From a bacterium CPR1 (lineage in GTDB: Bacteria > Vulcanimicrobiota > Xenobia > Xenobiales > QWHO01): 56,660 nucleotides of DNA. The stretch is taken from NCBI GenBank assembly GCA_021404945.1, contig QWHO01000009.1:1-56660 (forward strand), written 5' to 3'. This document shows, one piece after another, positions 13,681-56,302 of the stretch (position 1 is the stretch's first letter; each line of letters starts with the position of its first letter). A program made the position numbers and the translations under genes. Under the pieces are notes generated by a model, which saw only the letters and a list, made by a program, of their open reading frames with translations, had not been told where the DNA came from and made no database searches.

Positions 13681-13710
13681 AACCCCCTTGACACGGTTTG
13701 CCGGCTGCGC
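13681..13710 (-). repeat. Partial copy of the 41-nt hairpin repeat
   Basis: Read on the minus strand, these 30 nt match the left arm and loop of the repeat at 31566 and 56262 with two differences. The right arm is not conserved here, so it cannot fold like the others. A TGGGCGTC flank 5' of the repeat is shared with the copy at 56262. Confidence 0.65.
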
Positions 13711-21100: not shown

Positions 21101-24100
21101 TTTCCAGCTCAACCCGCTCGCGCTTCTCGCCGCGACGAGCTTCCTCGACCCGCTGCAGCTCGTTGGCCAGCTCTTCCAACTGCTCGGCCAGCTCGGATTC
21201 GCGCTGCGAAGACTGGCTGCTCTCGCTGGCAAATCGCCTGCGCTCGCCGGCCAGCTCTCCCTCCAGCTCGGCCAGGGCGCTTTCCAGGGCGGTAACCTGA
21301 TCCTCGGCCACCTGGCGCTGCTCGCGCTCGCCGGCCAGCTCCGAGCTCTGCAGTTGCAGCGAGCTCTCCAGCTCCTCGCGCTGGCGTTGCTCATTCAGGT
21401 TCAGGGCCCGGCTGGCCTCCAGCTCCTTGTGCAGGCGGCCAAGCTGCTGTTGGCGGTCCTCCAGCACTCCGCGCAGGGCCTTGAGGGCCTCCTCGAGCCG
21501 CTCGGCCGCCTCGTTGCGAGTCTTCAGCTCGCTTTCCAGCTCGCTGGCCCGAGCCGCGGTCTGTTTGAGCTTTTCGACCACCTGCATGGTCTTCTGCTCG
21601 AGGCTCTTGATGCGCAGATCGCGCGAGGCAACCTGCTCGCCCAACTCGCTGCGGGTTTGCTCCAATTCCTCGGCCAGCGCTCCCAGCCGGGCGTTCAACT
21701 CGGCTTCGCGCTGGGAAGCGCTCTCCTGGAGCTCTATCTCGCGCGCGGCCAGGCGCTTGCGCTCGCCCGAGAGCTCGCCTTCCAGCTCGGACAGGGCGAC
21801 CTCCAGGGCGGTCACGGTTTCCTCGGCCACCTGGCGCTGCTCGCGCTCGGAAGCAAGCTCTCCCTCTACCCGGCTTAACTGCTCGGAGCGGCTCTCAAGC
21901 TCGTTCTCCAGCTCGCGGGTGCGCTCGCTCAACTCGCCGTGGGCCCTGGCCGAGGCCCGCAGGTCCTCGGCCAGCGCTCCCAACCGCTCTTCGCGCTGTC
22001 GCAGATCTTCTTCCAGAGCCTTGAGGCGCTCTTCGGCCTGATCCAGCCCGCGGGCTTTGGTGACCAGGCCGACCTTGACGCGCTTGAGCTCGCTGTCCTT
22101 CTGCACTACCAGGCTGGCCAGCTCTTTGCTCTTGGCCTGCACGGCCCCCAGCGCCTCGGCCAGCTGGGCGCCCCTTTGCTCCAGGGCGGCGACCCGCGCA
22201 TCCCGGTCGGCAAGCTTGCCTTCCTGGTCCTGGGTCAGCTTGTAGAACTCGGCCAGTTGCTGCTGCACGCCTTCGACGCGCTGGCTCAGCTCGCTCTCGC
22301 GCTCGAGCGCCCGGGCCAGAGTCTGCTCCGAGGCGCTGAGCGCCTCGCTGCGCTCGGTCAGCTTGCGCCGCTCGTCGGACAGCATGTCCTCCAGCTCGGC
22401 CAGCGAGCCCTCCAGGGCCTCGACCTGCTCCTCGGCCATCTGGCGATGCTCGCGCTGGGTCTCCAGCTCGTGCTCCAGGCGCTCGACCGTCTGGCTGAGC
22501 TCGTCGCGCCGCTCCGACAGGCTGCGTTGCTGGCTCTGCGACTCTCCCAGAGAGCGCTCCAGGGCGTCCAGCATCTCCTGGCGCTCGTTGATCTGGGCAT
22601 TCAGCTCGCGGATCTGGGTCTCCGCCTCATCCAATGCTCGGGCCTTGTGCACCAGCGCGATCTTGATCTTCTTCAGGTCGGCGTCCAGGGTCTCGATCTG
22701 GCGCTCGCGCTGGTTGATCCCGCTATCCAGGTCCTTGACCCGGGCGTTGCTGGAAACCAGTTTTTCGGCCAGCTCGCGGGTCTTGCTCTCGAGGGCATGG
22801 ATCCGGTTGTCCCGCACCCCGAGCAGCTTTTCTTGCTCGCTATTTTGCCGTTTGAGCTGAGCCAGCTCCCCCTCCAGGCCCTGGAACCGTCCCTGCAGCT
22901 CGGAGAGCTGCTCGCTGACGGCTCGATGTCCTCGGCGCTCCTGGCCCAGATCGCTCTCCAGGTCGTTGAGGGAGACTTCCAGGGCCTGTACCGTCTCGTC
23001 GGCCAGCTCGCGGCGCTCGCGCTCGGCTTCCAGCTTGCTGTGGAGCTCGCTGATGCGCCCTTCCAGCTCGGTCTCGAGCTCCCGGTGCAGGGTGCGCGCC
23101 TCCTCCAGGGCTCCGTTGAGGTGATCAAGCTGCTCCTGGCGCTCGTTGAGCAGCTGGTCCATCTCGGAAAGCTGGCTCTCGGCCTCCTCAAGACCGCGGG
23201 CACGCTGCACCAGGGCCACTTTGATCTTCTTGAGGTCGACCTCCAGGGCGCTGGTATGGCGGGCCCGCTCAGCCAGGGCCCCTTCCACCTCCTTGAGGCG
23301 GGTCTCGCTGGCCACCAGCCGTTCTTCGGTCTGCTGGGCCCGGCCCGCCAGCGCCTTGATCTGGCTGTCGCGCACCTCCAGCTTCTTTTCTTGCTCTTGC
23401 TGGTGGCGATAGAAATCGGCCAGCTGCTGCTGGGTGCTGGTCAGCTGAGCCTCCAGCTCGGCCACCCGGGCAGCGGCCCGGTGATGCTCCTGGCGCTCCT
23501 TGCTCAGGTCCTGCTCAAAGTCGCCCAGAGCCACTTCCAGCTCGGAGACCTGCTCTTCCGAGAGTGAGCGGCGCTCGCGCTCGGTCTCGATCTGCTCGGT
23601 CAGCTGCGCGAGCTGAGCGCGCTCGATGCTCAGCTCGTGCTCCAGACCTGCCAGGCGGCTCTCCAGCTCGGCTCGGGCGGCCTCTGTCTCCTCCAGCTCG
23701 GCCTGGGTCAGCTCGCGTCGCGTGGTCTCCTCTTCGAGCTGGTAGGCCCGTTGCTCGAGCTCGGTCGACTGGGCATCGAGCTTGCCCCGCTGCTCGTCGA
23801 GCTCGGCCTGGAAGAGATCCATCAAGCCCTTCTGCTCGCCCAGTTGCTCTTCCAGCTGGTGGGCCCGCTCGCGGAGCCCCTCTTGCTCGCTCTGCGACTC
23901 GGCCAGCTGGCTTTCCAGCACCTCCAGGTGCTCCTGGCGCTCATTGAGCAGGTTGTCCAGCTCGGTGAGCTGCTCTTCGGTCTCGTGCAACGACTTGTTG
24001 CGAGCGTCCAGGGCCTGGGCCAGCTGGGTCAGCTGACGCGAGCGCGTCTCGCCTTCGGCCTCGGACTTCTTGAGGGCGTTGCTGGTCTGCACCAGCTTCT

Positions 24101-25985
24101 GGGCCAGGGCCCGCAGCTTGAGGTCGCGCTCCTGGATCTTCTTTTCTTGCTCGCCCGTCAGCTTGTAGAATTGGGCCACCTGCTCGGCCGTGGAGCCTTC
24201 CAGCGCGGCGAGCTGGTGCTCGAGCGACTCGACCCGGGCGCGGCTCTGCTCGAGCTGGCCGCGCGCCTCGGAAAGCTCCGAGCGCTGATCGTAGAGCGTC
24301 GTCTCCAGCTCGCCCACCGTCTCTTCCAGGGCGGTCACCTGGCTGTCGGAGACACCCCGGCGCTCCTGCTCCTGCTCGAGCTCGGCGGCCAGGCGCTCGC
24401 GCTCGGCTCGACGCTCGGCCAGCTCGCTCTCCAGCCCCTGGATGCGCTCCTTGTCCTGCTCGGACTCGGCATTGAGGTCGTGCAGGGCCGACTCCAGCTC
24501 GAGGATGCCCTCCTCCAGGCTCTGGACCTGCATCTGGGTGACGGTCTCGCGCTCGCGAGCCTGCTCGAGCTCCTCACGAGCCCGCCCGAGCTCCTGGTCG
24601 AGCTGCTGGGCCCTGGCCATGGAGCGCTCCAGCTCGGCCTGGACCTGCTCGAGCCGCTGGTGGGTGGCATCCGCGTCGGTTTGGGCCGAGGAAAGCTGCT
24701 CGTCCAGCGCCACCACTTGCTGGCGAGCCACCTCCAACTCGTCGGACAGGTCCTCTGCCTGCTGGCGCGAGCGGTTGAGCGAGCCTTCCAGCTCGTCGTG
24801 GCTCTGGTGCAGTCGGGTGATCTCGTTCTCGAGCTCTTCCAGTCGAGACAGCTCGCTTTCGAGCCGAACCACCTTCTCGTTTTGAGCCTTAAGCTCGGAT
24901 TCGACCTGGAAAATGCGCTGGGCCCGGCCCTTGACTTCTTGCTCGAGCCCGGTCACCTTCTGGCGGCTCTTGAGCAGCTCGGCCACGACCTTCTGCAGCT
25001 TCTGCTCGAGCAGTTTGATGCGGCCTTCGCGGGTGGCCAGTTTCTTCTCTTGCTCGGCGTTGAGCTTGTAGAAATGCCCCAGCTGGTCGGTGGTCGCCTG
25101 GAGCTCCTGCTCGCGAGCGCTCAGCCGCGACTCCAGCCGCGTCACCTCGGAGCTGGCCTGGGCCAGCTGAGCACGCTCGCTCTCGAGGTCGTGGCGCGTC
25201 GCCTCCAACGTTTCCTGCATCTCGTGCAGGGCCGATTCCAGCTCGGAGGCCTCTTCGCGGGCGTTCTCGCGCTGGCGGGTGGTGCTGGTCAACTCCTGCT
25301 GAAGGCCCGCGGCCCGAGCCTGCTCAGCCTCGTGCAGGGCCGAAAGCTCGGCCACCCGCTCGGCCAGGGCCACCGACTCGGCTCCGGCCTCGTCCAGGGC
25401 ATGCTGCAGCTGGCCGATCTCGTCTTCGCGCTCGGCCAGCAGGGCCTCCAGCTCACCGATCTGCCGCCTGGAGCCAGCCAGGTCGGAGCGTGCCTCCTCG
25501 AGCTGCTGCTCCAGGTCGGCGATCAACATGCGCGACTCGTAGAGCTCGAGCTGCAGGGTGTCGTTGACCTCGTTGAGCACCCGGATGCGGCTGTCGCGGA
25601 TCAGGAGGCGTCCGCTCAGCTCGAGGTTGACGTTGGCGCTGGCCTCCAGCCGGGCCTTGAGGTCACAGGCCTGCTCACTGGTGCGCAACAGGTTCTCGTT
25701 GACCAGCGCCAGATTCTCGTCGCGCTGATCGATGGCGCCCAGCAGCTCGACCACGCGCTGGTCCAGGCGGTGGATGTCTTGATGGCGCGAGGCCAGGTTC
25801 TGCTCCAGGGCGTCCAGCTCGACGGCTCGCTGGGTGGCCTCCTCCTGGGCTTCGGCCAGGACCAGCTCCAGATCGCTGATCTGGCCCCCCAGGTTGGCCA
25901 GAGCGCGATCCGAGATGCTCATCACCAGGCTGGCCTCGTTGAGGCAAGTCCCCAACCCGTCCAGACGCTGGCTGGCGGAGGTCAT
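18129..25985 (-). CDS. Giant repetitive coiled-coil protein (2,618 aa)
   Basis: Almost the whole chain is heptad-like, rich in Glu, Gln, Leu, Arg and Ala, with no membrane helix, signal peptide or head domain. A signature RDxRIxxLExK recurs at least ten times (for example near nt 19740, 20505, 21070, 21608, 22195, 22800, 23355, 24115, 25015 and 25590), spaced about 180-300 residues. In several copies it follows FYKLTxEQEKKL. A second phrase, EREQRQVAEEQVxALE, comes about half a unit later. The protein is therefore an array of long repeats, probably a filament or long spacer. I choose ATG 25985 because it overlaps the upstream stop as TGATG. The C-terminus ends in one more signature (RDRQIRVLAAKLRE). 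Confidence 0.85.
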   Translation of the reverse strand: MTSASQRLDGLGTCLNEASLVMSISDRALANLGGQISDLELVLAEAQEEATQRAVELDALEQNLASRHQDIHRLDQRVVELLGAIDQRDENLALVNENLLRTSEQACDLKARLEASANVNLELSGRLLIRDSRIRVLNEVNDTLQLELYESRMLIADLEQQLEEARSDLAGSRRQIGELEALLAEREDEIGQLQHALDEAGAESVALAERVAELSALHEAEQARAAGLQQELTSTTRQRENAREEASELESALHEMQETLEATRHDLESERAQLAQASSEVTRLESRLSAREQELQATTDQLGHFYKLNAEQEKKLATREGRIKLLEQKLQKVVAELLKSRQKVTGLEQEVKGRAQRIFQVESELKAQNEKVVRLESELSRLEELENEITRLHQSHDELEGSLNRSRQQAEDLSDELEVARQQVVALDEQLSSAQTDADATHQRLEQVQAELERSMARAQQLDQELGRAREELEQARERETVTQMQVQSLEEGILELESALHDLNAESEQDKERIQGLESELAERRAERERLAAELEQEQERRGVSDSQVTALEETVGELETTLYDQRSELSEARGQLEQSRARVESLEHQLAALEGSTAEQVAQFYKLTGEQEKKIQERDLKLRALAQKLVQTSNALKKSEAEGETRSRQLTQLAQALDARNKSLHETEEQLTELDNLLNERQEHLEVLESQLAESQSEQEGLRERAHQLEEQLGEQKGLMDLFQAELDEQRGKLDAQSTELEQRAYQLEEETTRRELTQAELEETEAARAELESRLAGLEHELSIERAQLAQLTEQIETERERRSLSEEQVSELEVALGDFEQDLSKERQEHHRAAARVAELEAQLTSTQQQLADFYRHQQEQEKKLEVRDSQIKALAGRAQQTEERLVASETRLKEVEGALAERARHTSALEVDLKKIKVALVQRARGLEEAESQLSEMDQLLNERQEQLDHLNGALEEARTLHRELETELEGRISELHSKLEAERERRELADETVQALEVSLNDLESDLGQERRGHRAVSEQLSELQGRFQGLEGELAQLKRQNSEQEKLLGVRDNRIHALESKTRELAEKLVSSNARVKDLDSGINQRERQIETLDADLKKIKIALVHKARALDEAETQIRELNAQINERQEMLDALERSLGESQSQQRSLSERRDELSQTVERLEHELETQREHRQMAEEQVEALEGSLAELEDMLSDERRKLTERSEALSASEQTLARALERESELSQRVEGVQQQLAEFYKLTQDQEGKLADRDARVAALEQRGAQLAEALGAVQAKSKELASLVVQKDSELKRVKVGLVTKARGLDQAEERLKALEEDLRQREERLGALAEDLRASARAHGELSERTRELENELESRSEQLSRVEGELASEREQRQVAEETVTALEVALSELEGELSGERKRLAAREIELQESASQREAELNARLGALAEELEQTRSELGEQVASRDLRIKSLEQKTMQVVEKLKQTAARASELESELKTRNEAAERLEEALKALRGVLEDRQQQLGRLHKELEASRALNLNEQRQREELESSLQLQSSELAGEREQRQVAEDQVTALESALAELEGELAGERRRFASESSQSSQRESELAEQLEELANELQRVEEARRGEKRERVELETLLASRESRIKSLEQKTLQVLDKLKHSSTRVNELESRARVAERLELELTELRSELSQKTAELSRTREQLAESQANLARQEALNRTAAEELRDKLTESGQELETRSALLRELTAELAAEREHRQLAEEQVLALEQVMAELETDLAAARHGSAEQAELESGLRSQIKQLTASLDHSEKERQAGELERKQLKEEVSARGARIKSLEQKALQALEKLKQANAQVRDQDSRLKAATRQDEARQATLQKLEVELEELRQELSRRGHELEQSQERLRQTESSLESTRAESEQLRSELTSELQHRSGELKDRAQQLLELQTDLRQEREQRQLAEEQVLALEHALADTETQLRRAQGINREHETRQQDALGDFDRQRRQLEGRLHDLAREREQLQSRLTELESERAGLAAQLRQGQSERDELQTRLANLETQVKATSDQLGEFYKLTQEQERHLAERDLRIKTLELRGSEVETLKKQSNQLKARLVQALRELKETRAESDKLQSELSETRRLSAEHRMQRQKLETTGSEQLARLEQERDRSLARVQELEAEVAQQTRRAAELSTELSRRNAQAAELSEELQERVGLQAELEQACETIKLMKSEQRDLLEARSEHEREQVELERRVHELADRLADRERQLERLELDLKRLGQAEDRETIALGRVLKLEKALEQLNRNLASSNLRVRELDGALTQRQQEQLGLEERLSARQREVYDLANRLSQASEARLLLEAELEELRHHSSSAREEQARVSMLERQLSDRDLRLANLEKQLRERSSELGELQAEILTLRSQSAGARNQQQQVESALGERVDELQRQVSRLRNQLEESERESRDRLEKLHTAQKRLNELEQRQEDATRLESSVGAMQTKLRTAAQALTQAKQELQSKDQQLDDSERSRREMEQTLRRRSQEVEELEKRVLELTERFVEVSARESDIAGARKELAALKSELAAAREREEELKEQVQASRSNDMVPRQELENRDRQIRVLAAKLRETMKRNK

Positions 25986-26932
25986 CACGGTGGTGGCCTC
26001 CACCAGGCGCGCTCACGGGCCAGCACTTCCAGGGCCTGGATACGGCTGCCCGTCTGAGCCTCCAACTGGGCCAGCCGTCGCCGAGCGTCGACCTGGCCTT
26101 CGCTCAGCTCACCCTGGAGGTTGATCAGGGCAACCTCGAGCTCCAGGCGGCTCGTTTCCAGCGCTTCAGCCTGCCGCTCCTTGGCCTCCAGGCGTTGCTC
26201 GAGCAGGGCCAGTTTCTCTTCCTGAGATTCCCGGTCGAGCTGGCTCTCGCGCAGCAGCGCCTGGACCCGGGCCACCTCTTCCTCCAGCTGGTGGATGCTG
26301 GTCTCGCGCTGGCTCAGGCTCTCCTGCAGCTCGCCCAGTCGGGCCTCGCGGCTGGTCAGCTGACTCTCGAGCTCTTCCAGGCGGCTCTGCAGCTCGCCCG
26401 TGGCCTGGCCTTCCTTCTCGGCCATCTGCTCCTGGAGCAGGCTCAGCGCGTTGTAGGCTTCGTCGAGCTGATCACAGAGGCCGTCAATCTGCGACTGGAA
26501 CTCCTCGAGTTGCTCGGTGCTCCTCTGGAAGGCAGCTTCCACTCTGGCCAGGCGGGCCTGGGATTGCTCGAGCTCACCCCGGGTCTGCTCGAGCTCGGCG
26601 CTGCCCTCCTTGCGCCGGCCTTGCAGTTTCTCAACCCGTTCGGAGTATTTCTGGGCGGTCTCCTCGGTGCGCTTGAGCTCCTGACGGGCGGCTACCAGGG
26701 CCTTCTTGAGCTTCTGGGCGGTGGCTTCGTGACCCTGGGCCTGCTCTTGCGACTCGGCCAGCTGTTTTTCCAGCTTCCGGTAGCGGCGCTCGGAGTCGCG
26801 TAGAGCTTGCTGAAGCTCTTCGGCCGTCAGGGCAGCACGAGAGGAGGCCGCTGCGGAGCCCCGCGACGACCGGCGCGGGCGAGTCTCGATCAGGTCGTCG
26901 CCCGGTGGATTTCCTCTCAAGTTCTTGGCCAA
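25985..26932 (-). CDS. Coiled-coil protein, N-terminal partner of the giant protein
   Basis: The protein has 315 residues, starting at TTG 26932. A basic, disordered N-terminus (about 35 residues, with RPRRSSRGS) is followed by continuous coiled coil with the same composition and phrases (SQRETSIHQLEEE, LTSREARLGELQ) as the giant downstream protein. Its stop (25985-25987) overlaps the next ATG. Either two coupled genes make two related rods, or this is one 2,940-residue protein split by a -1 type frameshift at the TGGTGG near 26003. An intrinsic terminator lies only 18 nt before the start, so expression probably needs its own promoter. Confidence 0.7.
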   Translation of the reverse strand: MAKNLRGNPPGDDLIETRPRRSSRGSAAASSRAALTAEELQQALRDSERRYRKLEKQLAESQEQAQGHEATAQKLKKALVAARQELKRTEETAQKYSERVEKLQGRRKEGSAELEQTRGELEQSQARLARVEAAFQRSTEQLEEFQSQIDGLCDQLDEAYNALSLLQEQMAEKEGQATGELQSRLEELESQLTSREARLGELQESLSQRETSIHQLEEEVARVQALLRESQLDRESQEEKLALLEQRLEAKERQAEALETSRLELEVALINLQGELSEGQVDARRRLAQLEAQTGSRIQALEVLARERAWWRPPP

Positions 26933-31565: not shown

Positions 31566-31606
31566 GCGCAGCCGGAAAACTGTGTCAAGGGGGTTTCCGG
31601 CCGCGC
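31566..31606 (+). repeat. 41-nt dispersed hairpin repeat, copy A
   Basis: Arms GCGCAGCCGGAAA (31566-31578) and TTTCCGGCCGCGC (31594-31606) form a 13-bp stem with one mismatch around a 15-nt loop rich in G. The copy at 56262 matches 40 of 41 nt, and a decayed copy is at 13681 on the other strand. It lies just after tsaD and could double as its terminator, though there is no T-run. Confidence 0.8.
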
Positions 31607-33721: not shown

Positions 33722-35407
33722 TCAGGCGACCTGCTCGTCCTCTTGCTCCTCCTCTGTCGGGCCGTCGCCCCGGCGAGTACTTTCCACCCTGGTAGCCAGC
33801 TCGTCGATGGTCCGCTGGGCGCGTTGCACGCGCACGGCCCCATCGCGCACGATCCGCACCCCCGAGGTCAGGTGCTCCTTGTCCTGCTCGTCGAGGTAGC
33901 AGCTGAGCTGGCTCAAGCCGGCCATCAGCTCCTCGGCTCCCGCCACCACTTCTTCTCGCTGGCGGGCCAGCTCTTCTTCCAACTCGTCCACCGCCTCCGA
34001 CTGCTCCTGGCTCAACCCCTCCCGGCTGAAAGCAGGAGCCTGGGGTAGGCCGAGCAGGTGCTGTTGCACCAGGTCGGCCATCCAGGTGAGCACCTCCCCA
34101 AACTCCTCCAACTCGAGCGACTGCTCACCCACCTCGTTGACGGACTGGAGCACTCGCAGCAGGTTCTCCGTCATGACCAGCTCGCCGCCTCGGGCCTCGC
34201 CCCACTCTTCTTGGAGAGACATCGTGGAGGTGCCCATCTGTGTCTGGACCATGCGCGCGCCGCACTTGGAGCAGGCCCGATCCCCGGGCGCGTTGGGGGC
34301 CCCGCACATGACGCACAGCACTTTCCCCTCCAGCTCGCCGATCTGCTCGAAAGCCTCCTTGCAGGCGGCCAGTGCCTCCGAGGCCTGGATCAGGGCCTGG
34401 CGGGCCGGCTCGTACTGATCGGCCTGGCCGGCGGCATAGCCCTCGGCCAGCTCGATCGCCGGCCAGTGCATCTCATATGCCTGGCGGGTCTTCAGGGTCT
34501 GCTCCTGGATGGCGCTCGACCGGGTGGGCATGCTGAGCATGCGCTCGACCTCTCCAGACTCCTGCTCCATGCCATTGCGGAAGACTTCCAGGGCGTTGAG
34601 GAGGACCTGGTCGGGTACCTGGCCGGCCTGGTGGGCTGCCATGATGTTCAGCACCAGGTTGGCATGCGGCATCCTCGTCGGACCGGCCGTGAAGATGCGG
34701 GTGTTCAGCTCCTGCATGGCGGCGCGCACCGTTTCGGAGGCGTCCGTCACCTCGGTCAGGGCCGCTTCCAGCGCCTCGCCCCCCTCTCCGATGGCGCCAA
34801 GCAGCTCGCCCAGCATCTTCTTGAGGCGCTCGTAGGCACCCACCATGGCTTCCTCGGCGTCGCTCAACTCGCCCCTGGCGCGCATCTCTTGCTGGGCTTC
34901 CTGGCACATCTTGATGGCGCCTCGGACCGCATCCTCGAATTCGGCGCGGCTGACCGATCCGGCCAGAAAGCCTTCTTTCATCTTGACCATCAGGTTGACC
35001 AGCGGCACGCGGCTGGGGCCAGCGGCCAGCTCAGCTTGCTGGTAGGCGTCCATGGCGGTGGCCTGGCTCCAGGAGGCGCGGATTGCCCGGCGCACGGCTA
35101 CCAGGCCATCCTCCTCATCGCCGCTCCGGGCAAACTTTAAGACTGCATGCAGAGCCGACTCGACCTCCTGGAAAGCCTCCTCGATGCGGGCAATGGGCTC
35201 GGCGAACCGCTCCACGTGCTCAGCTCCCTGGCCGGCGATCTGCTTGCGGGTGGCCTCGCGAGCCTGCCCAAAGCGGGAAGTGAGCTGCTCGACATACTGC
35301 TGCAGCTCGGGTCGGGGAACGCTGCCGCCCTGAGCCCCCCGAACGAGTCGAAGCAGCTCGTCGAAGACCGGAGAGGGCGTCTCCCGCTGGACCGGGCTCT
35401 CGCTCAT
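33722..35407 (-). CDS. Helical protein with central zinc ribbon (paralogue of 5566-7026)
   Basis: The protein has 561 residues from ATG 35407; the open frame further upstream is antisense to the radical SAM gene. It is mostly helical, with heptad-like stretches. Near residue 360 it holds VLCVMCGAPN then RACSKCGARM, a complete zinc ribbon, followed by a GTSTMSL phrase matching the paralogue's GTITSRQLSL. N-terminal regions in this protein repeat a PRMPHxNLxxxxxxA-like unit (SRVPLVNLMVKMKEGFLAG and TRMPHANLVLNIMAAHQAG). Function unknown. It ends one nucleotide before the aat TTG start. Confidence 0.75.
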   Translation of the reverse strand: MSESPVQRETPSPVFDELLRLVRGAQGGSVPRPELQQYVEQLTSRFGQAREATRKQIAGQGAEHVERFAEPIARIEEAFQEVESALHAVLKFARSGDEEDGLVAVRRAIRASWSQATAMDAYQQAELAAGPSRVPLVNLMVKMKEGFLAGSVSRAEFEDAVRGAIKMCQEAQQEMRARGELSDAEEAMVGAYERLKKMLGELLGAIGEGGEALEAALTEVTDASETVRAAMQELNTRIFTAGPTRMPHANLVLNIMAAHQAGQVPDQVLLNALEVFRNGMEQESGEVERMLSMPTRSSAIQEQTLKTRQAYEMHWPAIELAEGYAAGQADQYEPARQALIQASEALAACKEAFEQIGELEGKVLCVMCGAPNAPGDRACSKCGARMVQTQMGTSTMSLQEEWGEARGGELVMTENLLRVLQSVNEVGEQSLELEEFGEVLTWMADLVQQHLLGLPQAPAFSREGLSQEQSEAVDELEEELARQREEVVAGAEELMAGLSQLSCYLDEQDKEHLTSGVRIVRDGAVRVQRAQRTIDELATRVESTRRGDGPTEEEQEDEQVA

Positions 35408-35470
35408 GGGAGGCGGTATTGGCCACCCGGGGTGAGTTCCCTGTTCGGGCACATTTCGGGTGCGGAGCCG

Positions 35471-35590
35471 ATGTGCGCGGAGTTGCCAGCGCTCGTGCCT
35501 GCATGCTCGGGCGGGGCGACCGGAATGGGCATCTGCGGCGTGCCCAGGGCGCGAGAGCAGGAGGCCGGTCCCGCCCGAGCCCCGAACTAA
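35471..35590 (+). CDS. Small cysteine-containing ORF, candidate RiPP precursor
   Basis: The ORF encodes 39 residues from ATG 35471, with GGAG 3 nt upstream (a tight spacing). It contains three cysteines and a Gly-rich central part (PACSGGATGMGICG) and ends with TAA 6 nt before the radical SAM gene. Ribosomally made peptides modified by this enzyme class are often encoded directly beside it. The frame stays open upstream of the ATG, so the start is not certain. Low confidence: it could be a chance ORF in GC-rich DNA. Confidence 0.3.
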   Translation: MCAELPALVPACSGGATGMGICGVPRAREQEAGPARAPN

Positions 35591-35596
35591 CGGCCA

Positions 35597-37501
35597 ATGC
35601 CGCGCGTCGCTCTGTTCAACATGCCGTTCGCGCCCGCCACCAGGCCCTCCATCCAGACGGGCCTGCTCAAGAGCGTGCTGCAAAAGAGCGGCCTTGAGGC
35701 CACCTGCCTTTACCCCAACATCGAGCTTTACGCCCGCATGCGAAGGCGCGGTTTCCACGTGCAGTACACCGCCCAGGTGCCCAGTATGGTCTACGAATGG
35801 CTCTTTTCCGAGCGAGCCTTCAAGCCGGGCGTAGCTGGAGACTGGCAGGCCAGCATGCGGCTCGAGGGCTATTGTAAGACCGTCTCCTTCCCCTTCCAGT
35901 CGCTGCTGGCCGTCAAGCGCGAGCTCATCCCCGAGTTGCTCGTCGACCTGATGGCTCGCGATTACTCGCTTTTCGACCTGTTCGCCTTCACCATGACCTA
36001 CCCCCAGATCAATGCCTCGCTGGCCCTGGCCCGGCGCCTGAAGGAGCGCCATCCCGACAAGCCCATCGTGTTCGGCGGGGCGACCTCGCAGATTCACGAC
36101 GAGAGCGTCTGCGAGCTGCTGCGCGTGTTTGAGTTCCTGGACGCCGGGGTGGTGGGGGAGGGCGAGCCGGTTCTCGTGCCCCTGGTGGAGCGGCTGCTCG
36201 ACCGGGCCGAGCCGGCCGACCTGCCCGGGGTGCACTACCGCTATCGGGGCGAGGTGCGTCGCGCCGCGCTCGGCCCCACCAGGCACGACCTGGAAGACGA
36301 GCTTTATCCTGACTATGACGAGTACTTCGAAATCCTCAAAGGGCTCGATTCAGGCACCCGCGGCCTCATGGAGCGGGTGCTTCCCATCGAGATGGGGCGC
36401 GGCTGCGCCTGGGGCGACAAAAAGACCTGCAAGTTCTGCGCCTTCTCTTTTCACGGCACGTTCCGCCGGCGCTCCAGGGAGCGCGTGCTGGCCGAGGTGG
36501 AGGCTCAGGTCGAGCGTTACTTCACCCCCCGACCCGACCGCGCCACCCCACCGGCTGGCACCACGCCCGCCTTCTATGTGGTGGACGACCTGGTCACTGT
36601 GCCCACGATTCAGGAGATTTTTCCCGAGTTGCGCCGCATCCATCCGCGTCTGCGCATTCCTTTCATGGAGGTGCGCACGGCCCTGACCGACCGGCATCTG
36701 GATATCCTGGCCCGGGCCGGAGTGCAGCTCGTCCAGCCTGGCATCGAAAGCATGGAGGATGCTCTGCTCGAGAAGATGAGCAAGGGCACCACCACTTTCC
36801 ACAACCTGATGCTCATGAAAGGCTGCGCTGAACGGGGGGTGCGGGTCAGCCACAATATCATTCTGGGCTTTCCCGACGCCACCGCCGAGGATCTGGCCCG
36901 GCAGTTGGGCCACCTCGAGCTGATCCCCCACCTGGACCCGCCCTTTGCCATCGAGCTCTCGTTCGTGCGCTTCTCGCCTTACTACCACCAGAAGGAACGC
37001 TACGGCTTGCGCAACTGGCGCCCCGACGAGTTCTACCGGGATATCTACCCCGATGAGCTCGACATCGAGAAGATCGCCTACGAGTACCAGCTTGACCGCG
37101 AGACCCCGCCCGAGTTGCAGGCCCTCTATCGGCGTACGGTGGAGCTGATCCGGGCCTGGCAGCAGGCCTGGATGCGAGCCGAGCGCCCCTATCTGTGGTT
37201 GGAGGACCAGGGCGACAGCGTGCTCTTGCGCGACGGTCGCCGCCCGCCCGAGGTCACCTACCGCTGCCAGGGCACCAAGGCGAGCGTGGTCCGCGAGACG
37301 ATGAGAAGGCCCCTGAGCCTGGCCCGCCTGGAAGAGCTGACCGGGGCCGAGGAGGGCGAGCTGCAAGCGGCGCTGGCCGAGCTGGTGGCCGACCGTCTGG
37401 TGCTGGAGCTGCGCGAGCGTTACCTCTGCCTGGCTTTGCAACAGTCCCGCGTGCTGACCGGCTCAGAATCAGAACGCGCGGGACTGTCGACAATCTGTTG
37501 A
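35597..37501 (+). CDS. B12-binding radical SAM protein, RiPP-maturation type
   Basis: The protein has 634 residues. The N-terminal cobalamin-binding-like part begins VALFNMPFAPATRPSIQTGL and includes YEWLFSERAF and IVFGGATSQI. The radical SAM cluster is C270-x7-C278-x2-C281 (MGRGCAWGDKKTCKFCAFSF), the unusual spacing I associate with the ribosomal-peptide-maturation radical SAM protein 1 family, whose members methylate or otherwise modify RiPP precursors. The C-terminal 110 residues (TKASVVRETMRRPLSLARL) look like a winged-helix, possibly a peptide-recognition element. No ribosome site precedes ATG 35597; an upstream small ORF may be translationally coupled. The last 20 codons read through a dispersed repeat at 37441-37490. 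Confidence 0.8.
   Translation: MPRVALFNMPFAPATRPSIQTGLLKSVLQKSGLEATCLYPNIELYARMRRRGFHVQYTAQVPSMVYEWLFSERAFKPGVAGDWQASMRLEGYCKTVSFPFQSLLAVKRELIPELLVDLMARDYSLFDLFAFTMTYPQINASLALARRLKERHPDKPIVFGGATSQIHDESVCELLRVFEFLDAGVVGEGEPVLVPLVERLLDRAEPADLPGVHYRYRGEVRRAALGPTRHDLEDELYPDYDEYFEILKGLDSGTRGLMERVLPIEMGRGCAWGDKKTCKFCAFSFHGTFRRRSRERVLAEVEAQVERYFTPRPDRATPPAGTTPAFYVVDDLVTVPTIQEIFPELRRIHPRLRIPFMEVRTALTDRHLDILARAGVQLVQPGIESMEDALLEKMSKGTTTFHNLMLMKGCAERGVRVSHNIILGFPDATAEDLARQLGHLELIPHLDPPFAIELSFVRFSPYYHQKERYGLRNWRPDEFYRDIYPDELDIEKIAYEYQLDRETPPELQALYRRTVELIRAWQQAWMRAERPYLWLEDQGDSVLLRDGRRPPEVTYRCQGTKASVVRETMRRPLSLARLEELTGAEEGELQAALAELVADRLVLELRERYLCLALQQSRVLTGSESERAGLSTIC
37441..37490 (+). repeat. Inverted repeat with copy 2 of the 19-nt motif
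   Basis: ACAGTCCCGCG (37441-37451) and CGCGGGACTGT (37477-37487) form an 11-bp perfect stem with a 25-nt loop. The right side contains GAACGCGCGGGACTGTCGA (37472-37490), identical to 11482-11500. It sits inside the last codons of the radical SAM gene, so the repeat appears to have supplied the protein's present C-terminus. Confidence 0.65.
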
Positions 37502-37529: not shown

Positions 37530-38285
37530 TTGAAGCCGCTCGGGCGGCATAACCCCCTCCTCAAGGAGGTGGCCCGACTCGGTCATGCCCGCGAGCGCCG
37601 GGCCACCGGCCGCTTTCTGGTCGAGGGCCTGCGCTGCCTGAGCGCGGCCGAGCGGGCCGACTTCCCAGTGGAGACGGTGCTGGTCAGCCCCCGCCATGAG
37701 GAGCTGGGGTCCCGCTGGCAGGCACGAGGGAGCGCGGTGTATCTGGTCGAGGAGGAGCTGCTCGAGCGCGCCGCCGCGACCAGCACCTGCCAGGGCGTGC
37801 TGGCCGTGGCCAGAATGCCGACCGCTCCGGTAGCCTGGCACGACCTGGTGCTCTTGCTCGATCATATCGCCGATCCCGGCAACCTGGGCACCCTGGTGCG
37901 GGCCGCTGCGGCGGTCGCTCCCTGCACGGTCGTGGTCGGGGAGCAGGGCGCCGACCCCTTCGGCCCCAAAGCCGTGCGCGCCTCGGCAGGAGCCCTCTTC
38001 AGCGTGCCTCTGGCGCGGATGCTCGAGCCCCTGCCCGAGCATGCCGTCTTCAGCGCCGTGGTGCGTGGAGGGCAATCGCTCTTCGAGACCCGCTTCCCGG
38101 CCCGGAGCTTGCTGGTGCTCGGCAATGAGGCCCACGGGCTGCAAGAGCTGCGAGGCCAGTCGGTGACCCTGCCCATGGCAGCCGGACTGGAGTCGCTCAA
38201 CGTGGCCATGGCGGGCACCGTCATGCTGTACGAGATCCGACGCCAGATGGGATTTTGCCGCCAGGTGAACAGCTCGTCATTCTGA
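37530..38285 (+). CDS. TrmH/SpoU-family RNA 2'-O-methyltransferase
   Basis: The protein has 251 residues from TTG 37530. An N-terminal L30e-like substrate domain (RRATGRFLVEGLRCLSAA, STCQGVLAVA) precedes the SPOUT knot: LLLDHIADPGNLGTLVRAAA (motif 1), LLVLGNEAHGL (motif 2) and LESLNVAMAGTVMLYEIRRQ (motif 3). This is the layout of the RlmB/TsnR-like rRNA methyltransferases. Which RNA it acts on is not readable from sequence. It stands just before the oxidase locus but is probably unrelated to it. Confidence 0.85.
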   Translation: MKPLGRHNPLLKEVARLGHARERRATGRFLVEGLRCLSAAERADFPVETVLVSPRHEELGSRWQARGSAVYLVEEELLERAAATSTCQGVLAVARMPTAPVAWHDLVLLLDHIADPGNLGTLVRAAAAVAPCTVVVGEQGADPFGPKAVRASAGALFSVPLARMLEPLPEHAVFSAVVRGGQSLFETRFPARSLLVLGNEAHGLQELRGQSVTLPMAAGLESLNVAMAGTVMLYEIRRQMGFCRQVNSSSF

Positions 38286-38423: not shown

Positions 38424-40217
38424 ATGACAGACCAGCCCCATCAGTCGAATACAGTTTTGCCCGCACTCTCCGCCTTCACTCGCGGACTTGCGCTGGCTAC
38501 TGCTCTGCTGATCTTCATCGGCGCCACGGTGACCACCACTGGCTCGGGGCTGGCGGTGCCGGACTGGCCGCTCTCTTTCGGCGGATTTTTCCCGGCCATG
38601 GTCGGAGGCGTGCTCTATGAGCACGGGCACCGGCTGGTTGCCAGCCTGGTGGGCTTCCTGACGCTGGTGCTGGCCTGTTGGACCAGCTTCGCCCGTACCC
38701 CCACCCTGGTACGCCGGCTGGCCTGGCTGGCCTTGCTGCTGGTCATCATCCAGGGTCTTCTGGGAGGCCTGACAGTGCTGCTGAAGCTCCCCACGGCCGT
38801 CTCGGTGGCCCACGGTTGCCTGGCCCAGTTCTTCCTGTGTACCGTGGTGGCCCTGGTCCTGGTCACCTCGCCCGGCTGGAATCGGCCCGGCCCCATCGAG
38901 CGGGCCGGGCGCTTGCGGACAGCGGCCTTTCTGGCCCTGGCCTCGGTGGTGGGCCAGTTGGTGCTGGGGGCGGTGATGCGTCATATGGGCGCCGGTCTCA
39001 AGTTTGTCGATTTCCCACTCACCGGCGGACGCATCATCCCTCTCATGACCACCCCCGCCGACGCCATCCATTTCGCTCACCGAGTCGGCGCGCTCGTGGT
39101 GTCGCTGGCCTGTGGCTACCTGGTCTACGAGATCCTGCGTTACCAGCAGGACGGTCGGCTGCGCCGGTTGGCCGTGGCCCTGGCGGGCCTGCTGAGCCTG
39201 CAAGTCGCGCTGGGCGTGGCCACCCTGTGGAGCTTTCGAGGCTTCCTGCCCACCTGTCTGCATGTCATGAACGGTGCCCTGGTGCTGGCCGCTGTTTTCT
39301 CCCTGCTGGTCTGGGCCCTGCGCCTGGCGAGCTTCGACGCCTCGCCCCACGTGGCCGACGAGCCCCGCGGCTCGACCCGCGACTGGATGGAGCTGACCAA
39401 GCCCCGGCTGGTCACCATGGCCGCCTTTACCGCCGGCGGCTCCTACTGGATGGCCACCAACGAGCCAAGCTGGGCCGTGTTGACTCACCTGCTGCTGGGC
39501 ACCTACGTGATGGGCGCCGGAGCGGCCACGCTGAACCACGTTCTTGAAGTGGACGTGGACGCTCGCATGCGCCGCACCCAGAACCGCCCGCTGCCCGCCG
39601 GACGGGTGGATCCGGTGGCCGCTGAGATTTTTGGAGGCATTCTGGCGGCCGGGGGTTGCCTTTACCTGGGCGTGGCCGTTCAACCACTCTCGGGCTTGCT
39701 GGCAGCTCTGGCGGTCATCACCTACGTGCTGGTTTACACACCCCTCAAGCGCGTCTCTTCGCTCTGCACCCTGGTGGGGGCGGTGCCCGGCGCCTTGCCG
39801 GTGCTGGTGGGCTGGGCGGCGGCCGAGGGCACAGTCACGCTGGGAGGCTGGCTGCTTTTCTTGATCCTGTTCCTCTGGCAGTTGCCCCATTTCATGGGCA
39901 TCGCCTGGCTGTGCCGTGAAGATTATGCCAGGGCGGGGCTGCCGATGATCACGGTTGTCGATCCGAAGGGAGCGCTCGCCAGCGCCCAGATCCTGGTCTA
40001 CACTCTGTTGCTGGTACCCGTCAGCATGGCACCCACGCTGGCCGGCATGGCCGGGTTGACCTACTTCTTGCTCGCTTTCCTGTTGGGAATGGGATTCTTG
40101 TTTTACGGCCTGCGCATGGCCCGCGAGCGCACGACCCGCAGAGCTCGCCAGCTGGTGCTGGCATCGGTCGCCTACCTCCCTCTGCTCTACATCATCTTGC
40201 TCTGGAATCGAACCTGA
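38424..40217 (+). CDS. Fused heme A synthase CtaA - protoheme IX farnesyltransferase CtaB
   Basis: The protein has 597 residues from ATG 38424. The first half (about 1-310) is CtaA/COX15-like: TTTGSGLAVPDWPLSFGG, EHGHRLVAS, VAHGCLAQ, IHFAHRVGAL and TCLHVMNGALV carry the paired His ligands, in eight membrane helices. The second half (about 325-597) is CtaB: DWMELTKPRLVTMAAF, then LNHVLEVDVDARMRRTQNRP (the N/DxxxD prenyl-diphosphate motif) and LPHFMGIAWLCREDY. Together they turn heme B into heme O and then heme A for the a-type oxidase downstream. The fusion ensures equal dosage. ATG 38424 has no clear ribosome site; a longer TTG start at 38367 is possible. Confidence 0.9.
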   Translation: MTDQPHQSNTVLPALSAFTRGLALATALLIFIGATVTTTGSGLAVPDWPLSFGGFFPAMVGGVLYEHGHRLVASLVGFLTLVLACWTSFARTPTLVRRLAWLALLLVIIQGLLGGLTVLLKLPTAVSVAHGCLAQFFLCTVVALVLVTSPGWNRPGPIERAGRLRTAAFLALASVVGQLVLGAVMRHMGAGLKFVDFPLTGGRIIPLMTTPADAIHFAHRVGALVVSLACGYLVYEILRYQQDGRLRRLAVALAGLLSLQVALGVATLWSFRGFLPTCLHVMNGALVLAAVFSLLVWALRLASFDASPHVADEPRGSTRDWMELTKPRLVTMAAFTAGGSYWMATNEPSWAVLTHLLLGTYVMGAGAATLNHVLEVDVDARMRRTQNRPLPAGRVDPVAAEIFGGILAAGGCLYLGVAVQPLSGLLAALAVITYVLVYTPLKRVSSLCTLVGAVPGALPVLVGWAAAEGTVTLGGWLLFLILFLWQLPHFMGIAWLCREDYARAGLPMITVVDPKGALASAQILVYTLLLVPVSMAPTLAGMAGLTYFLLAFLLGMGFLFYGLRMARERTTRRARQLVLASVAYLPLLYIILLWNRT

Positions 40218-40281
40218 GCAGGACTGATTCCAGGCGAGCACAAAAACCCGGATCGCGAAAATCCGACTCCTGAGGAAACCT

Positions 40282-41376
40282 ATGAAGAGAACCTTAACGC
40301 AGCGCATCGTGACAGCCGCCTGGATGGTGACGCTGGGATTGATGCTGTCGGGCTGCGGCCTGCGCGGCCCCCAGAGTATCGTCGATGCGGACGGTCCGGT
40401 GGCCGAGTATCAATACTACACCTTCATGGTTTCCTTCTACGTCAGCTTGCTCATCTTCGTGCTCGTTGGCAGCCTGATCGTTTACTGCGTGGTGCGCTAC
40501 CGGCATGTGGGCGAAGTCACTCCCGACACCCCGCTGCCCGACCAGGGGCACGGGAGCACCAAGCTCGAGGTGTGCCTGATCATCCTCTCGGTCTGCCTGG
40601 TTGTCGTCATTCTGGTGCCGGCTCTGAAAGGGCAGTTCTACCAGGGAACGCTCCAGGACCCGACCTCGGAGGTGCTGGAGATCAATGTGACGGGTTACCA
40701 GTGGTGGTGGAAGTTCGAGTATCCCGCCCTGGGAGTGGTGACCGCCAACGAGCTGGCCATCCCGACCGGTCAGGCGGTGAAGTTCAACCTGAAGACCAAC
40801 GACGTCATCCACTCGTTCTGGGTGCCCAGACTGGGGGGTAAGGTCGACCTGATGCCCAATCAGAGCAACTGGCTCTGGCTTCGGTCCACCAGGGATGGCA
40901 CCTATTACGGCCAGTGCGCCGAGTTCTGCGGCGAGTCGCACGCCTTCATGAAGTTCCGCGTTCACTCCCTGCCCGGCGATGAATTCAAGAGCTGGGTCGA
41001 GCACCAGAAGTCGGGTGCCCGCGAGGTGACCGACCCCCTGGCCCTGCGAGGCAAGGAGCTGTTCAAGGCCAAGCAGTGCGTCGGCTGCCACCAGATTCGC
41101 CCGGCGGCGGGCGGAAATCTCGGCCCCGATCTGACCCACCTGGCCAGCCGCACCACCATCGCCGCCGGCCAGCTCGAGAACACTCCTGAGAATCTGGCCG
41201 CCTGGCTCGACCACCCGGGGGAGATCAAGCCCGGCAATATGATGCAGGCTGCCTTCCTGCACTCATCGCCTCAGCCGTCCTGGCGTCGTCCCTGGCCCGG
41301 CTGGGACAACCTCAACATCGCGCTCAACCAGGGTGACATCGACGCTCTGGTGGCCTACCTGCGGAGCCTGGAGTAA
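40282..41376 (+). CDS. ctaC: Cytochrome c oxidase subunit II fused to cytochrome c (caa3 type)
   Basis: The protein has 364 residues, starting at ATG 40282 with GAGGAAACCT upstream. A lipoprotein signal ends in LSGCG, followed by two membrane helices and the periplasmic CuA domain (GYQWWWKFEYP; ligands in CAEFCGESHAFM). A C-terminal class I cytochrome c domain has the heme site C266-VGCH and a distal Met in PGNMMQ. This is the CtaC of caa3 oxidases, where electrons come from the fused cytochrome. It is separated by 3 nt from ctaD, whose ribosome site (GGAG) overlaps this gene's end. Confidence 0.95.
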   Translation: MKRTLTQRIVTAAWMVTLGLMLSGCGLRGPQSIVDADGPVAEYQYYTFMVSFYVSLLIFVLVGSLIVYCVVRYRHVGEVTPDTPLPDQGHGSTKLEVCLIILSVCLVVVILVPALKGQFYQGTLQDPTSEVLEINVTGYQWWWKFEYPALGVVTANELAIPTGQAVKFNLKTNDVIHSFWVPRLGGKVDLMPNQSNWLWLRSTRDGTYYGQCAEFCGESHAFMKFRVHSLPGDEFKSWVEHQKSGAREVTDPLALRGKELFKAKQCVGCHQIRPAAGGNLGPDLTHLASRTTIAAGQLENTPENLAAWLDHPGEIKPGNMMQAAFLHSSPQPSWRRPWPGWDNLNIALNQGDIDALVAYLRSLE

Positions 41377-41379
41377 CTC

Positions 41380-43296
41380 ATGTCGAGCACCCCAAAGATG
41401 ATCATCGAGCCGGTCCCCGAGAAGGGAATGTATGAAAGATTTCTGCGCCGCCCCACCGAGCAGAGCGGTCTCCTGAGCTGGATCACCACCATCGATCATA
41501 AGCGGATCGGTGTGCTTTATGCGGTCACGGCCCTGTTCTGGTTCATCTTCGGAGGCATCGAAGCCCTGGCCATCCGAACCCAGCTGGCCTACCCGGATCA
41601 AAGGCTCTACTCAGCCGAGCTCTACAATCAGCTCTTCACCATGCATGGCACCACGATGATCTTTCTGTTCGTGATGCCGATGTCGGTCGCGTTCTTTAAC
41701 TACATCGTGCCTCTTCAGATCGGGGCCCGCGACGTCGCCTTTCCCCGCCTGAACGCTTTCAGTTACTGGGTTTTCCTGTTCGGCTCCATCTTGATCAACC
41801 TGGGCTGGTTCATCGGCCAGACGCCCAATGGCGGTTGGTTCGGCTACGCTCCCAACACCCTGAATGCTTACAATCCTGGCCTGGGAATCGACTTCTGGGT
41901 GGTGGGCCTGTCGGTGCTGGGCATCAGCTCGGTGGCCGGCGCCCTGAACTTCGCCGCCACCATCATCAACATGCGGGCCCCGGGAATGTCGATGTGGCGC
42001 CTGCCCGTCTTCTCCTGGATGACCCTGGTGACCAGCTTCCTCCTCTTCATGGCCTTCCCGGCCATCACCATCGCGCTGGTCGAGTTGCTCTTCGACCGCT
42101 ATGCTGGCACGAACTTCTTCGCGGTGGCCAAGGGCGGTCTCCCCATCGTCTGGCAGCATCTGTTCTGGATTTTCGGTCATCCCGAGGTCTACATCCTGAT
42201 CCTGCCGCCGATGGGGATCATCAGCGAGATCTTGCCGGTGTTCTCCCGCCGGCCTCTGTTCGGATATCCGCTTGTGGTGGCCTCGGGAATGGCCATCGGC
42301 TTCATGGGTTTCACGGTCTGGGCTCACCATATGTTCACCACCGGCATGGGCAATATCGCCAATGCCGCTTTTGCGGTCACCACCATGGCCATCGCCGTGC
42401 CCACCGGCGTGAAGATTTTCAACTGGGTGCTGACGCTGTGGGGTGGGCAGATCCGCCTCAAAGTCCCGATGCTGTTTGCGATCGGTTTCATCACGATGTT
42501 CATGATCGGCGGGTTCTCGGGCCTGATGCACGCCAACCCGGCCCACGACTCGCAACAGCAAGATACCTACTTCATCGTGGCCCACTTTCACTACGTGCTG
42601 ATCGGCGGGGCCATTATGGGGCTGCTCGGCGGAATCTATTACTGGTTCCCCAAGATCACCGGGAAGATGATGAGCGAGCTGCTCGGCAAGCTCTCCTTCT
42701 GGGGCCTGTTCGTGGGCTTCAACCTCACCTTCTTTCCGATGCACTGGCTGGGTCTCAATGGCATGCCCCGGCGCATCTACAGCTACGCTGACGGGATGGG
42801 ATGGAACGAGCTCAATCTGGTGTGCACCATCGGGGCCTTCCTGATGGCAGCTTCTATCGGGCTGGTCTACTTCGACATGGTCAAGTCGCTGATCTACGGC
42901 GATCAGGCCTCTGACGACCCCTGGGATGCCCGCACGCTCGAGTGGAGCCTCCCTTCGCCGCCTCCGGTCTACAACTTCAAGGACATCCCCCACGTAAAAG
43001 ACCTGGATGACTGGTGGGTCACCAAGCATCCCGAGCTGCTGCACCAGGAGGAGCCGCTGTTAGGCGACGAGGCTCATGGTGAGCACCACGGCCACGACGA
43101 GCACGGCATTCACATGCCGGGCGGCTCTTATTTCCCCATGTTTGCGGCCGCAGGGTTCGCATTCGCCGCAACCGCGATGATTTTCCAGCCGATGCCCTGG
43201 GCGATCGTCGGGTTGGTCGGTGCGGTGGTCTCCATTTTCTGCTGGTCACTCGAGCCGATCGGCGGCTACCACATCCACTTTGAGGACGAACACTGA
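41380..43296 (+). CDS. ctaD: Cytochrome c oxidase subunit I
   Basis: The protein has 638 residues. The heme a ligands and CuB histidines are in TMHGTTMIFLF, FGHPEVYILILPP (including the D/K-channel glutamate and the tyrosine-histidine pair), VWAHHMFTTG and AHFHYVLIGG. This is an A-family heme-copper oxidase catalytic subunit that reduces oxygen and pumps protons. After the twelve core helices the C-terminus has a His-rich loop (GEHHGHDEHGIH) and two further helices, which I read as an extra tail. It overlaps ctaE by 1 nt (TGATGA). Confidence 0.95.
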   Translation: MSSTPKMIIEPVPEKGMYERFLRRPTEQSGLLSWITTIDHKRIGVLYAVTALFWFIFGGIEALAIRTQLAYPDQRLYSAELYNQLFTMHGTTMIFLFVMPMSVAFFNYIVPLQIGARDVAFPRLNAFSYWVFLFGSILINLGWFIGQTPNGGWFGYAPNTLNAYNPGLGIDFWVVGLSVLGISSVAGALNFAATIINMRAPGMSMWRLPVFSWMTLVTSFLLFMAFPAITIALVELLFDRYAGTNFFAVAKGGLPIVWQHLFWIFGHPEVYILILPPMGIISEILPVFSRRPLFGYPLVVASGMAIGFMGFTVWAHHMFTTGMGNIANAAFAVTTMAIAVPTGVKIFNWVLTLWGGQIRLKVPMLFAIGFITMFMIGGFSGLMHANPAHDSQQQDTYFIVAHFHYVLIGGAIMGLLGGIYYWFPKITGKMMSELLGKLSFWGLFVGFNLTFFPMHWLGLNGMPRRIYSYADGMGWNELNLVCTIGAFLMAASIGLVYFDMVKSLIYGDQASDDPWDARTLEWSLPSPPPVYNFKDIPHVKDLDDWWVTKHPELLHQEEPLLGDEAHGEHHGHDEHGIHMPGGSYFPMFAAAGFAFAATAMIFQPMPWAIVGLVGAVVSIFCWSLEPIGGYHIHFEDEH

Positions 43297-48959: not shown

Positions 48960-49183
48960 AACTTGGCAACCTCGGGGCAATCTCCTGGCAACGGCTCGCA
49001 GACATGCCGCTCACTCCGGGCTGGCATCATGAAGCCGTGGACAGAATGCCTTTTCACCTTCGACTGCGACAAGAAGGCGCGGCTGGACCCAGAAGGCTCT
49101 GGCCTGCAGGCCCGGGTCAGTCGCGCCCAGATCAGTCCCGGCACATGCGCGGGCAACTCCGCGCACACCCTCAAGCGCCAGGC
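48960..49183. other. Intergenic region between rtcA and the Crp-type gene
   Basis: 224 bases holding the divergent promoters of rtcA and the Crp-type regulator. A plus-strand open frame (about 49029-49187) exists but has no ribosome site and no family likeness, so I do not call it. The right end contains the -35 of the regulator promoter. Confidence 0.6.
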
Positions 49184-56261: not shown

Positions 56262-56302
56262 GCGCAGCCGGAAAACTGTGTCAAGGGGGTTTCCAGCCGC
56301 GC
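56262..56302 (+). repeat. 41-nt dispersed hairpin repeat, copy B
   Basis: 40 of 41 nt match copy A (31566). The single change (CCGG to CCAG) is in the right arm. It lies upstream of the glycosyltransferase start (56196) in the intergenic region, with the flank TGGGCGTC shared with the partial copy at 13681. Confidence 0.8.

Follow-up and report, generated by a model that had tools for sequence, protein, structure and literature searches.

The 634-aa protein encoded at 35597-37501 of the window, the whole 56,660-nucleotide stretch of DNA analysed here, is probably a solitary PoyC/TIGR03975-family cobalamin-dependent radical SAM enzyme that acts in trans on an unlinked peptide or protein, the small open reading frame (ORF) beside it being a chance frame. 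A preliminary description had paired the enzyme with this ORF as a candidate precursor peptide. The features of the region are as follows.

33722-35407, minus strand: divergent neighbour, a 561-aa protein with a zinc ribbon (gene call; Pfam Zn_Ribbon_1, 25.1 bits, cut-off 25)
35442-35519, no strand assigned: copy of a dispersed intergenic repeat with an imperfect palindrome at about 35471-35516 (81% identical copy at G000:C666:4912-4989)
35471-35590, plus strand: 39-codon ORF, proposed as a precursor and rejected as a gene (non-coding codon score, no homologue, start in the dispersed repeat)
35597-37501, plus strand: solitary TIGR03975/PoyC-type cobalamin-dependent radical SAM protein, 634 aa (NCBIfam and Pfam profiles)
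35972-36175, plus strand: part of the predicted N-terminal cobalamin-binding Rossmann-like region, residues 126-193 (Pfam B12-binding and fold search)
36404-36439, plus strand: [4Fe-4S] cluster motif C270-A-W-G-D-K-K-T-C278-K-F-C281 (sequence)
37193-37432, plus strand: predicted C-terminal winged-helix domain, residues 533-612 (AlphaFold2, stand-alone model, Foldseek)
37530-38285, plus strand: SpoU-family RNA 2'-O-methyltransferase, 28 nt downstream of the enzyme gene (Pfam SpoU_methylase, 86.6 bits)
38424-43296, plus strand: cytochrome oxidase block of heme o synthase (CtaB), CoxB, and CtaD (NCBIfam TIGR01473, TIGR02866, and TIGR02891, above cut-offs)
49140-49167, minus strand: second, partial copy of the repeat (89% identity over 28 nt)

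Identity of the Radical SAM Enzyme

The enzyme gene is an uninterrupted frame of 634 codons with a strong coding signal, and its start codon is kept in the nearest homologues. Its product belongs to NCBIfam family TIGR03975, a membership for which a profile search had been proposed beforehand, with a score of 412.3 bits against a cut-off of 281.85 and a match covering profile positions 1-606 of 606. The family is that of RiPP maturation radical SAM C-methyltransferases (NCBIfam). The next-ranked NCBIfam family, methyl-coenzyme M reductase (MCR) glutamine C-methyltransferase, reaches 60.6 bits, far under its cut-off of 360. The cluster cysteines follow the spacing C270-x7-C278-x2-C281, and this unconventional Cx7Cx2C motif has been reported for PoyC, which is responsible for C-beta-methylation of valine in polytheonamide, and for the bottromycin C-methyltransferases (PMC11285071; PMC5682303). 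The initial assignment as a B12-type radical SAM protein with this spacing is borne out by the sequence itself, by Pfam Radical_SAM (53.5 bits), and by the predicted fold.

A PDB sequence search with the single protein returned no match at E ≤ 0.01, and the same search with a family profile ranked TokK first (E 9e-7). The AlphaFold2 model is of moderate confidence (mean pLDDT 67), and its only PDB matches in a fold search at E ≤ 0.001 are TsrM, OxsB, TokK, CysS, and AprD4, all of them cobalamin/radical SAM-type enzymes. The putative cobalamin-binding region is read from a Pfam B12-binding match of 19.0 bits, under the cut-off of 32.1, together with this pLDDT 67 model, which matches only cobalamin/radical SAM-type folds. 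The gene product is thus very probably a cobalamin-dependent radical SAM C-methyltransferase, with methyl transfer suggested by its family. With PoyC, PoyB, and the rest of TIGR03975, it shares the full-length profile match, the Cx7Cx2C motif, and, as predicted, the cobalamin/radical SAM architecture, a likeness that runs through profile and motif rather than a direct alignment with PoyC. It differs in having C-A-W-G-x3-T-C in place of C-W-W-G-x3-H-C and in standing alone, with no precursor, epimerase, transporter, or peptidase linked to it. Members of TIGR03975 usually have a precursor or partner maturase nearby, although this does not strictly define the family.

The C-terminal winged helix is predicted with confidence, as pLDDT values of 83-93 extend across residues 531-610 and the domain modelled by itself has a pTM of 0.70. 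It is possible, judging from the model, that this domain is a leader-peptide-binding (RRE-like) domain. Identification as an RRE was set aside, since Foldseek returns generic winged helices and a weak RRE match (5v1u, E 0.2) and does not separate RREs from other winged helices. If the enzyme works as its family suggests, SAM would be reductively cleaved at the [4Fe-4S] cluster, the resulting 5'-deoxyadenosyl radical would take a hydrogen off an unactivated peptide carbon, and methylcobalamin would give its methyl group to form a C-methylated residue. The substrate would come from elsewhere in the genome, either as an unlinked leader-type peptide or as a larger protein, and the winged helix may serve to hold it.

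Gene Neighbourhood

The enzyme gene and the divergent zinc-ribbon gene have a 189-nt intergenic gap in common. As had been noted from the outset, no transporter or peptidase gene adjoins the enzyme; the identified neighbours are the zinc-ribbon protein, the SpoU-type RNA methyltransferase, and the heme/cytochrome oxidase genes, where CtaB forms the C-terminal half of a longer protein. The window, which covers 35 kb on one side of the enzyme and 19 kb on the other, contains no leader-type or PoyD-like ORF. It also encodes a 2624-aa coiled-coil protein (18129-26003, minus strand) with SMC/Rad50-like stretches below cut-offs and a strong AT skew. A second dispersed element, CGCAGCCGGAAAACTGTG, occurs in three copies against 0.05 expected, at 13692-13709 (minus strand), 31567-31584 (plus strand), and 56263-56280 (plus strand).

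The Upstream Open Reading Frame and the Dispersed Repeat

The 39-residue ORF exists as described: it runs from ATG to TAA, stops 6 nt before the enzyme gene, and encodes three Cys residues (C2, C12, and C22) and a Gly-rich centre. Its sequence, however, makes it very improbable that this ORF is a gene. The open frame reaches back to 35147, through the antisense strand of the neighbouring gene. The codon score is -0.12 per codon, where true coding windows of equal length average 0.43; it is lower than the scores of 99.7% of such windows and ordinary for off-frames. In a tblastn search of 149 genomes of the phylum, no close relative among them, the 39-aa peptide matches only itself, and further matches are weak and of the composition type (E 0.007 and up). 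When the same intergenic gap is shuffled with dinucleotides preserved, an ATG-initiated ORF of at least 39 codons arises in 11% of shuffles, rising to 26% when GTG and TTG starts are allowed.

The first 14 codons of the ORF, its first half, are a copy of the dispersed repeat, and two of the three Cys lie inside it. Each repeat unit spans about 46 nt and is imperfectly palindromic. Beyond the 81% identical copy, about ten further partial copies are present in the genome, nearly all in intergenic gaps and in both orientations, these copy counts being lower bounds. Contigs C666, C473, C587, C553, C558, and C153 carry the repeat, with three copies in tandem at a 63-nt period on C473. The 16-mer core, with at most one mismatch, has eight matches compared with zero for a reversed control. 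All 16 palindrome pairs form in two copies, 13-16 of 16 form in seven of the 12 copies, and 13 of 16 form in the window copy. Across the 12 copies, the position of the ORF start codon reads ATG in five, GTG in three, and GCG in four, such that the start is lost in most, and changes fall at codon positions 1, 2, and 3 in numbers of 10, 13, and 12, without the third-position excess typical of coding sequence.

In its multiple copies, intergenic location, orientation in both directions, occasional tandem arrangement, and short imperfect palindrome, the repeat resembles REP-type elements, though it has its own sequence and no Rfam match. The repeat appears to be specific to the window genome among the 58 genomes searched, as none of the others has more than one match to the core and matches do not exceed those to the reversed control. 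On this sequence evidence, the 39-codon ORF is a chance frame that owes its origin to a REP-like palindrome in the upstream region common to both genes. Its candidacy as a precursor gene was rejected on non-coding codon usage, the lack of an in-frame homologue outside its own genome (a refuting outcome named beforehand for close relatives and seen here across the 149 more distant genomes), and a repeat-derived first half that evolves unlike coding DNA. The earlier suggestion of a minimal new RiPP locus is therefore unsupported.

A Four-Genome Clade of Solitary Enzymes

The window enzyme groups with three proteins (G026:C17, G017:C144, and G015:C45) at 40-41% identity in a clade with an SH-aLRT value of 100 in two trees, these values coming from a quick tree search without bootstraps. 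All four members match TIGR03975. A genome-contig search with the single enzyme protein found no relative, and one with the clade alignment matched the G026 and G017 records, one distant protein from Kiritimatiellae, and nothing else. The G026 record is assigned to Candidatus Eremiobacterota and G017 carries the NCBI label Armatimonadetes; by GTDB taxonomy, the window genome falls in the same phylum. The clade is found in four of the 149 genomes of the phylum, spread over three families, with one copy per genome, and G015 and G017 additionally hold cluster-type paralogues.

No gene besides the enzyme is common to the surroundings of the four members, and no leader or epimerase is linked at any of the four loci, as read from our own gene calls and phmmer probes, which would miss a cluster just past the fetched stretch. 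None of the three relatives has an ORF comparable to the 39-codon ORF. Small ORFs flanking their enzymes were also considered as precursors and rejected, as by eye they resemble neither each other nor the window ORF; the 57-aa ORF that precedes the G026 enzyme gene matches no family.

The clade is further distinguished by its cluster loop, which reads C-[AIT]-W-G-x3-[TP]-C (C-A-W-G-D-K-K-T-C in the window enzyme, with I/T and P/T in the other members), whereas almost every other member examined, four plasmid-borne homologues from other phyla among them, has C-W-W-G-x3-H-C. The exceptions outside the clade are the Kiritimatiellae protein (C-R-W-A...R-C) and one protein with Q for H. The C-W-W-G-x3-H-C pattern is an observation of this analysis rather than a published criterion. 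Since two near-constant residues of the loop are changed in the clade, its reaction or substrate may differ. For the four genomes, methyl transfer and a peptide substrate are suggested by analogy with the family.

Other members of TIGR03975 in the phylum are found in a different context. In genomes of the same order and class, they adjoin PoyD-type epimerases (TIGR04517) and precursors of 80-190 aa with NHLP leaders, and across related Eremiobacterota the precursors of the family are NHLP- or Nif11-leader proteins of this size, often next to PoyD-type epimerases. Several of the NHLP precursors have long Ala/Asn/Val-rich tails. Large proteusin-type clusters are present in G009, G007, G001, G003, and G015 (L035, L036, L038, L040, and L044), in which as many as four TIGR03975 enzymes occur together with several PoyD-type epimerases and with NHLP precursors that have Ala/Asn/Val-rich tails. 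One proteusin, pythonamide, is known from Ca. Eudoremicrobiaceae, a family of Eremiobacterota (PMC9259500). These clusters and the window share the enzyme family, the phylum, and in part the order, whereas their enzymes are about 31-35% identical and adjoin epimerases and NHLP precursors, both of which the window enzyme lacks.

Possible Substrates and Alternative Explanations

As the adjacent ORF is a chance frame in a repeat, the substrate is probably encoded elsewhere in the genome. The earlier idea that the product is handled by distant genes thus survives in a changed form, in that the substrate itself is probably distant. The genome is available as a fragmented MAG (94% complete, 798 contigs), from which an unlinked precursor may be absent; one linked to the enzyme would lie on the window contig. 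Across the whole genome, the best match to a PoyD-type epimerase scores 23 bits against a cut-off of 325, no Nif11 leader is found, C39-peptidase families have two matches of moderate score, and there is no NHLP or Nif11 precursor with GG and a core. One NHLP-leader-type protein is encoded, on contig C450 (58 bits, cut-off 50.9), and it is unlinked and coreless. It aligns over the entire two-part leader of proteusin-type precursors that in relatives sit next to TIGR03975 enzymes, and it ends where those precursors go on into GG and the core. Also encoded on this contig (G000:C450:1-5283, L082) are a PapB-like SPASM radical SAM enzyme, which scores below the equivalog cut-off, a further protein that combines an HExxH motif with a signal-like N-terminus, and a tandem pair of paralogous proteins of about 90 aa with twin-arginine-like RRRQFLA-type N-termini and Pro-rich tails. 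It is possible that C450 is a separate RiPP locus in the same genome.

That the 39-residue ORF is nonetheless the precursor of a minimal RiPP locus, modified by the enzyme, is highly improbable. It lies on the same strand just upstream with Cys residues and a Gly-rich centre, and small upstream precursors do exist in the family: in Streptomyces globosus, an annotated 37-aa pheganomycin-family precursor lies 93 nt upstream of a TIGR03975 enzyme, the arrangement proposed for the window. That precursor, however, belongs to a known family and is accompanied by peptide ligase and dihydroxyphenylglycine genes, which the window enzyme lacks, and the 39-aa ORF has no evident similarity to it. The codon usage, the absence of homologues and of counterparts in the clade, the repeat-derived start, and the frequency of such ORFs in gap shuffles all stand against the ORF. 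Slightly less improbable, though still improbable, is that the enzyme gene is a decaying, functionless remnant of a lost proteusin cluster. Same-order relatives hold such clusters and the partners are missing in the window, but the frame, coding signal, and cluster motif are intact, and the clade is deep and carries its own variant motif in four genomes.

Two further readings give the enzyme a particular substrate in trans. In one, which is unlikely, the enzyme acts on the C450 protein as a coreless or decayed proteusin-like precursor that sits beside its own SPASM radical SAM enzyme. This protein is the sole NHLP leader of the genome and is homologous to precursors beside TIGR03975 enzymes, and in G015 leader-type precursors with Val-rich or Tyr/Gly-rich tails occur away from TIGR03975 enzymes (G015:C363:310-687, L083; G015:C213:783-1208, L084), with no modifying enzymes nearby on their contigs. 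It nevertheless lacks the GG and core, it comes from a 5.3-kb contig of a MAG, and in G026, another genome of the clade, the leader-type proteins are two of Nif11 type, with no NHLP leader among them. In the other reading, somewhat less unlikely, the target of the orphan clade is not a RiPP but a larger protein of the cell, as it is for the methyl-coenzyme M reductase C-methyltransferases. The single copy per genome, the orphan state, the housekeeping surroundings in the window, the occurrence in three families, the changed cluster loop, and the second rank of the MCR-type family are consistent with this, whereas the TIGR03975 match is far stronger than the MCR-type match, the distribution is sparse, and there is no candidate protein substrate. 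The preferred explanation, a solitary family member acting in trans, leaves room for either kind of substrate. A further proposal has somewhat under even chances: the four orphan enzymes would form a group of their own, marked by the altered cluster loop, and would C-methylate in trans a substrate dedicated to them and not the product of an adjacent RiPP cluster. This substrate would be either an unlinked leader-type peptide or a protein of the cell.

Implications for the TIGR03975 Family

With the precursor peptide recognised as a misreading of repeat DNA, a false lead falls away and a sharper one takes its place, a small and deep PoyC-like clade in Eremiobacterota with no linked substrate and two changed cluster-loop residues. 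If the substrate is a cellular protein, the reach of radical C-methylation would go beyond methyl-coenzyme M reductase and RiPPs. An unlinked peptide as substrate would instead mean that part of the TIGR03975 family escapes cluster-based mining.
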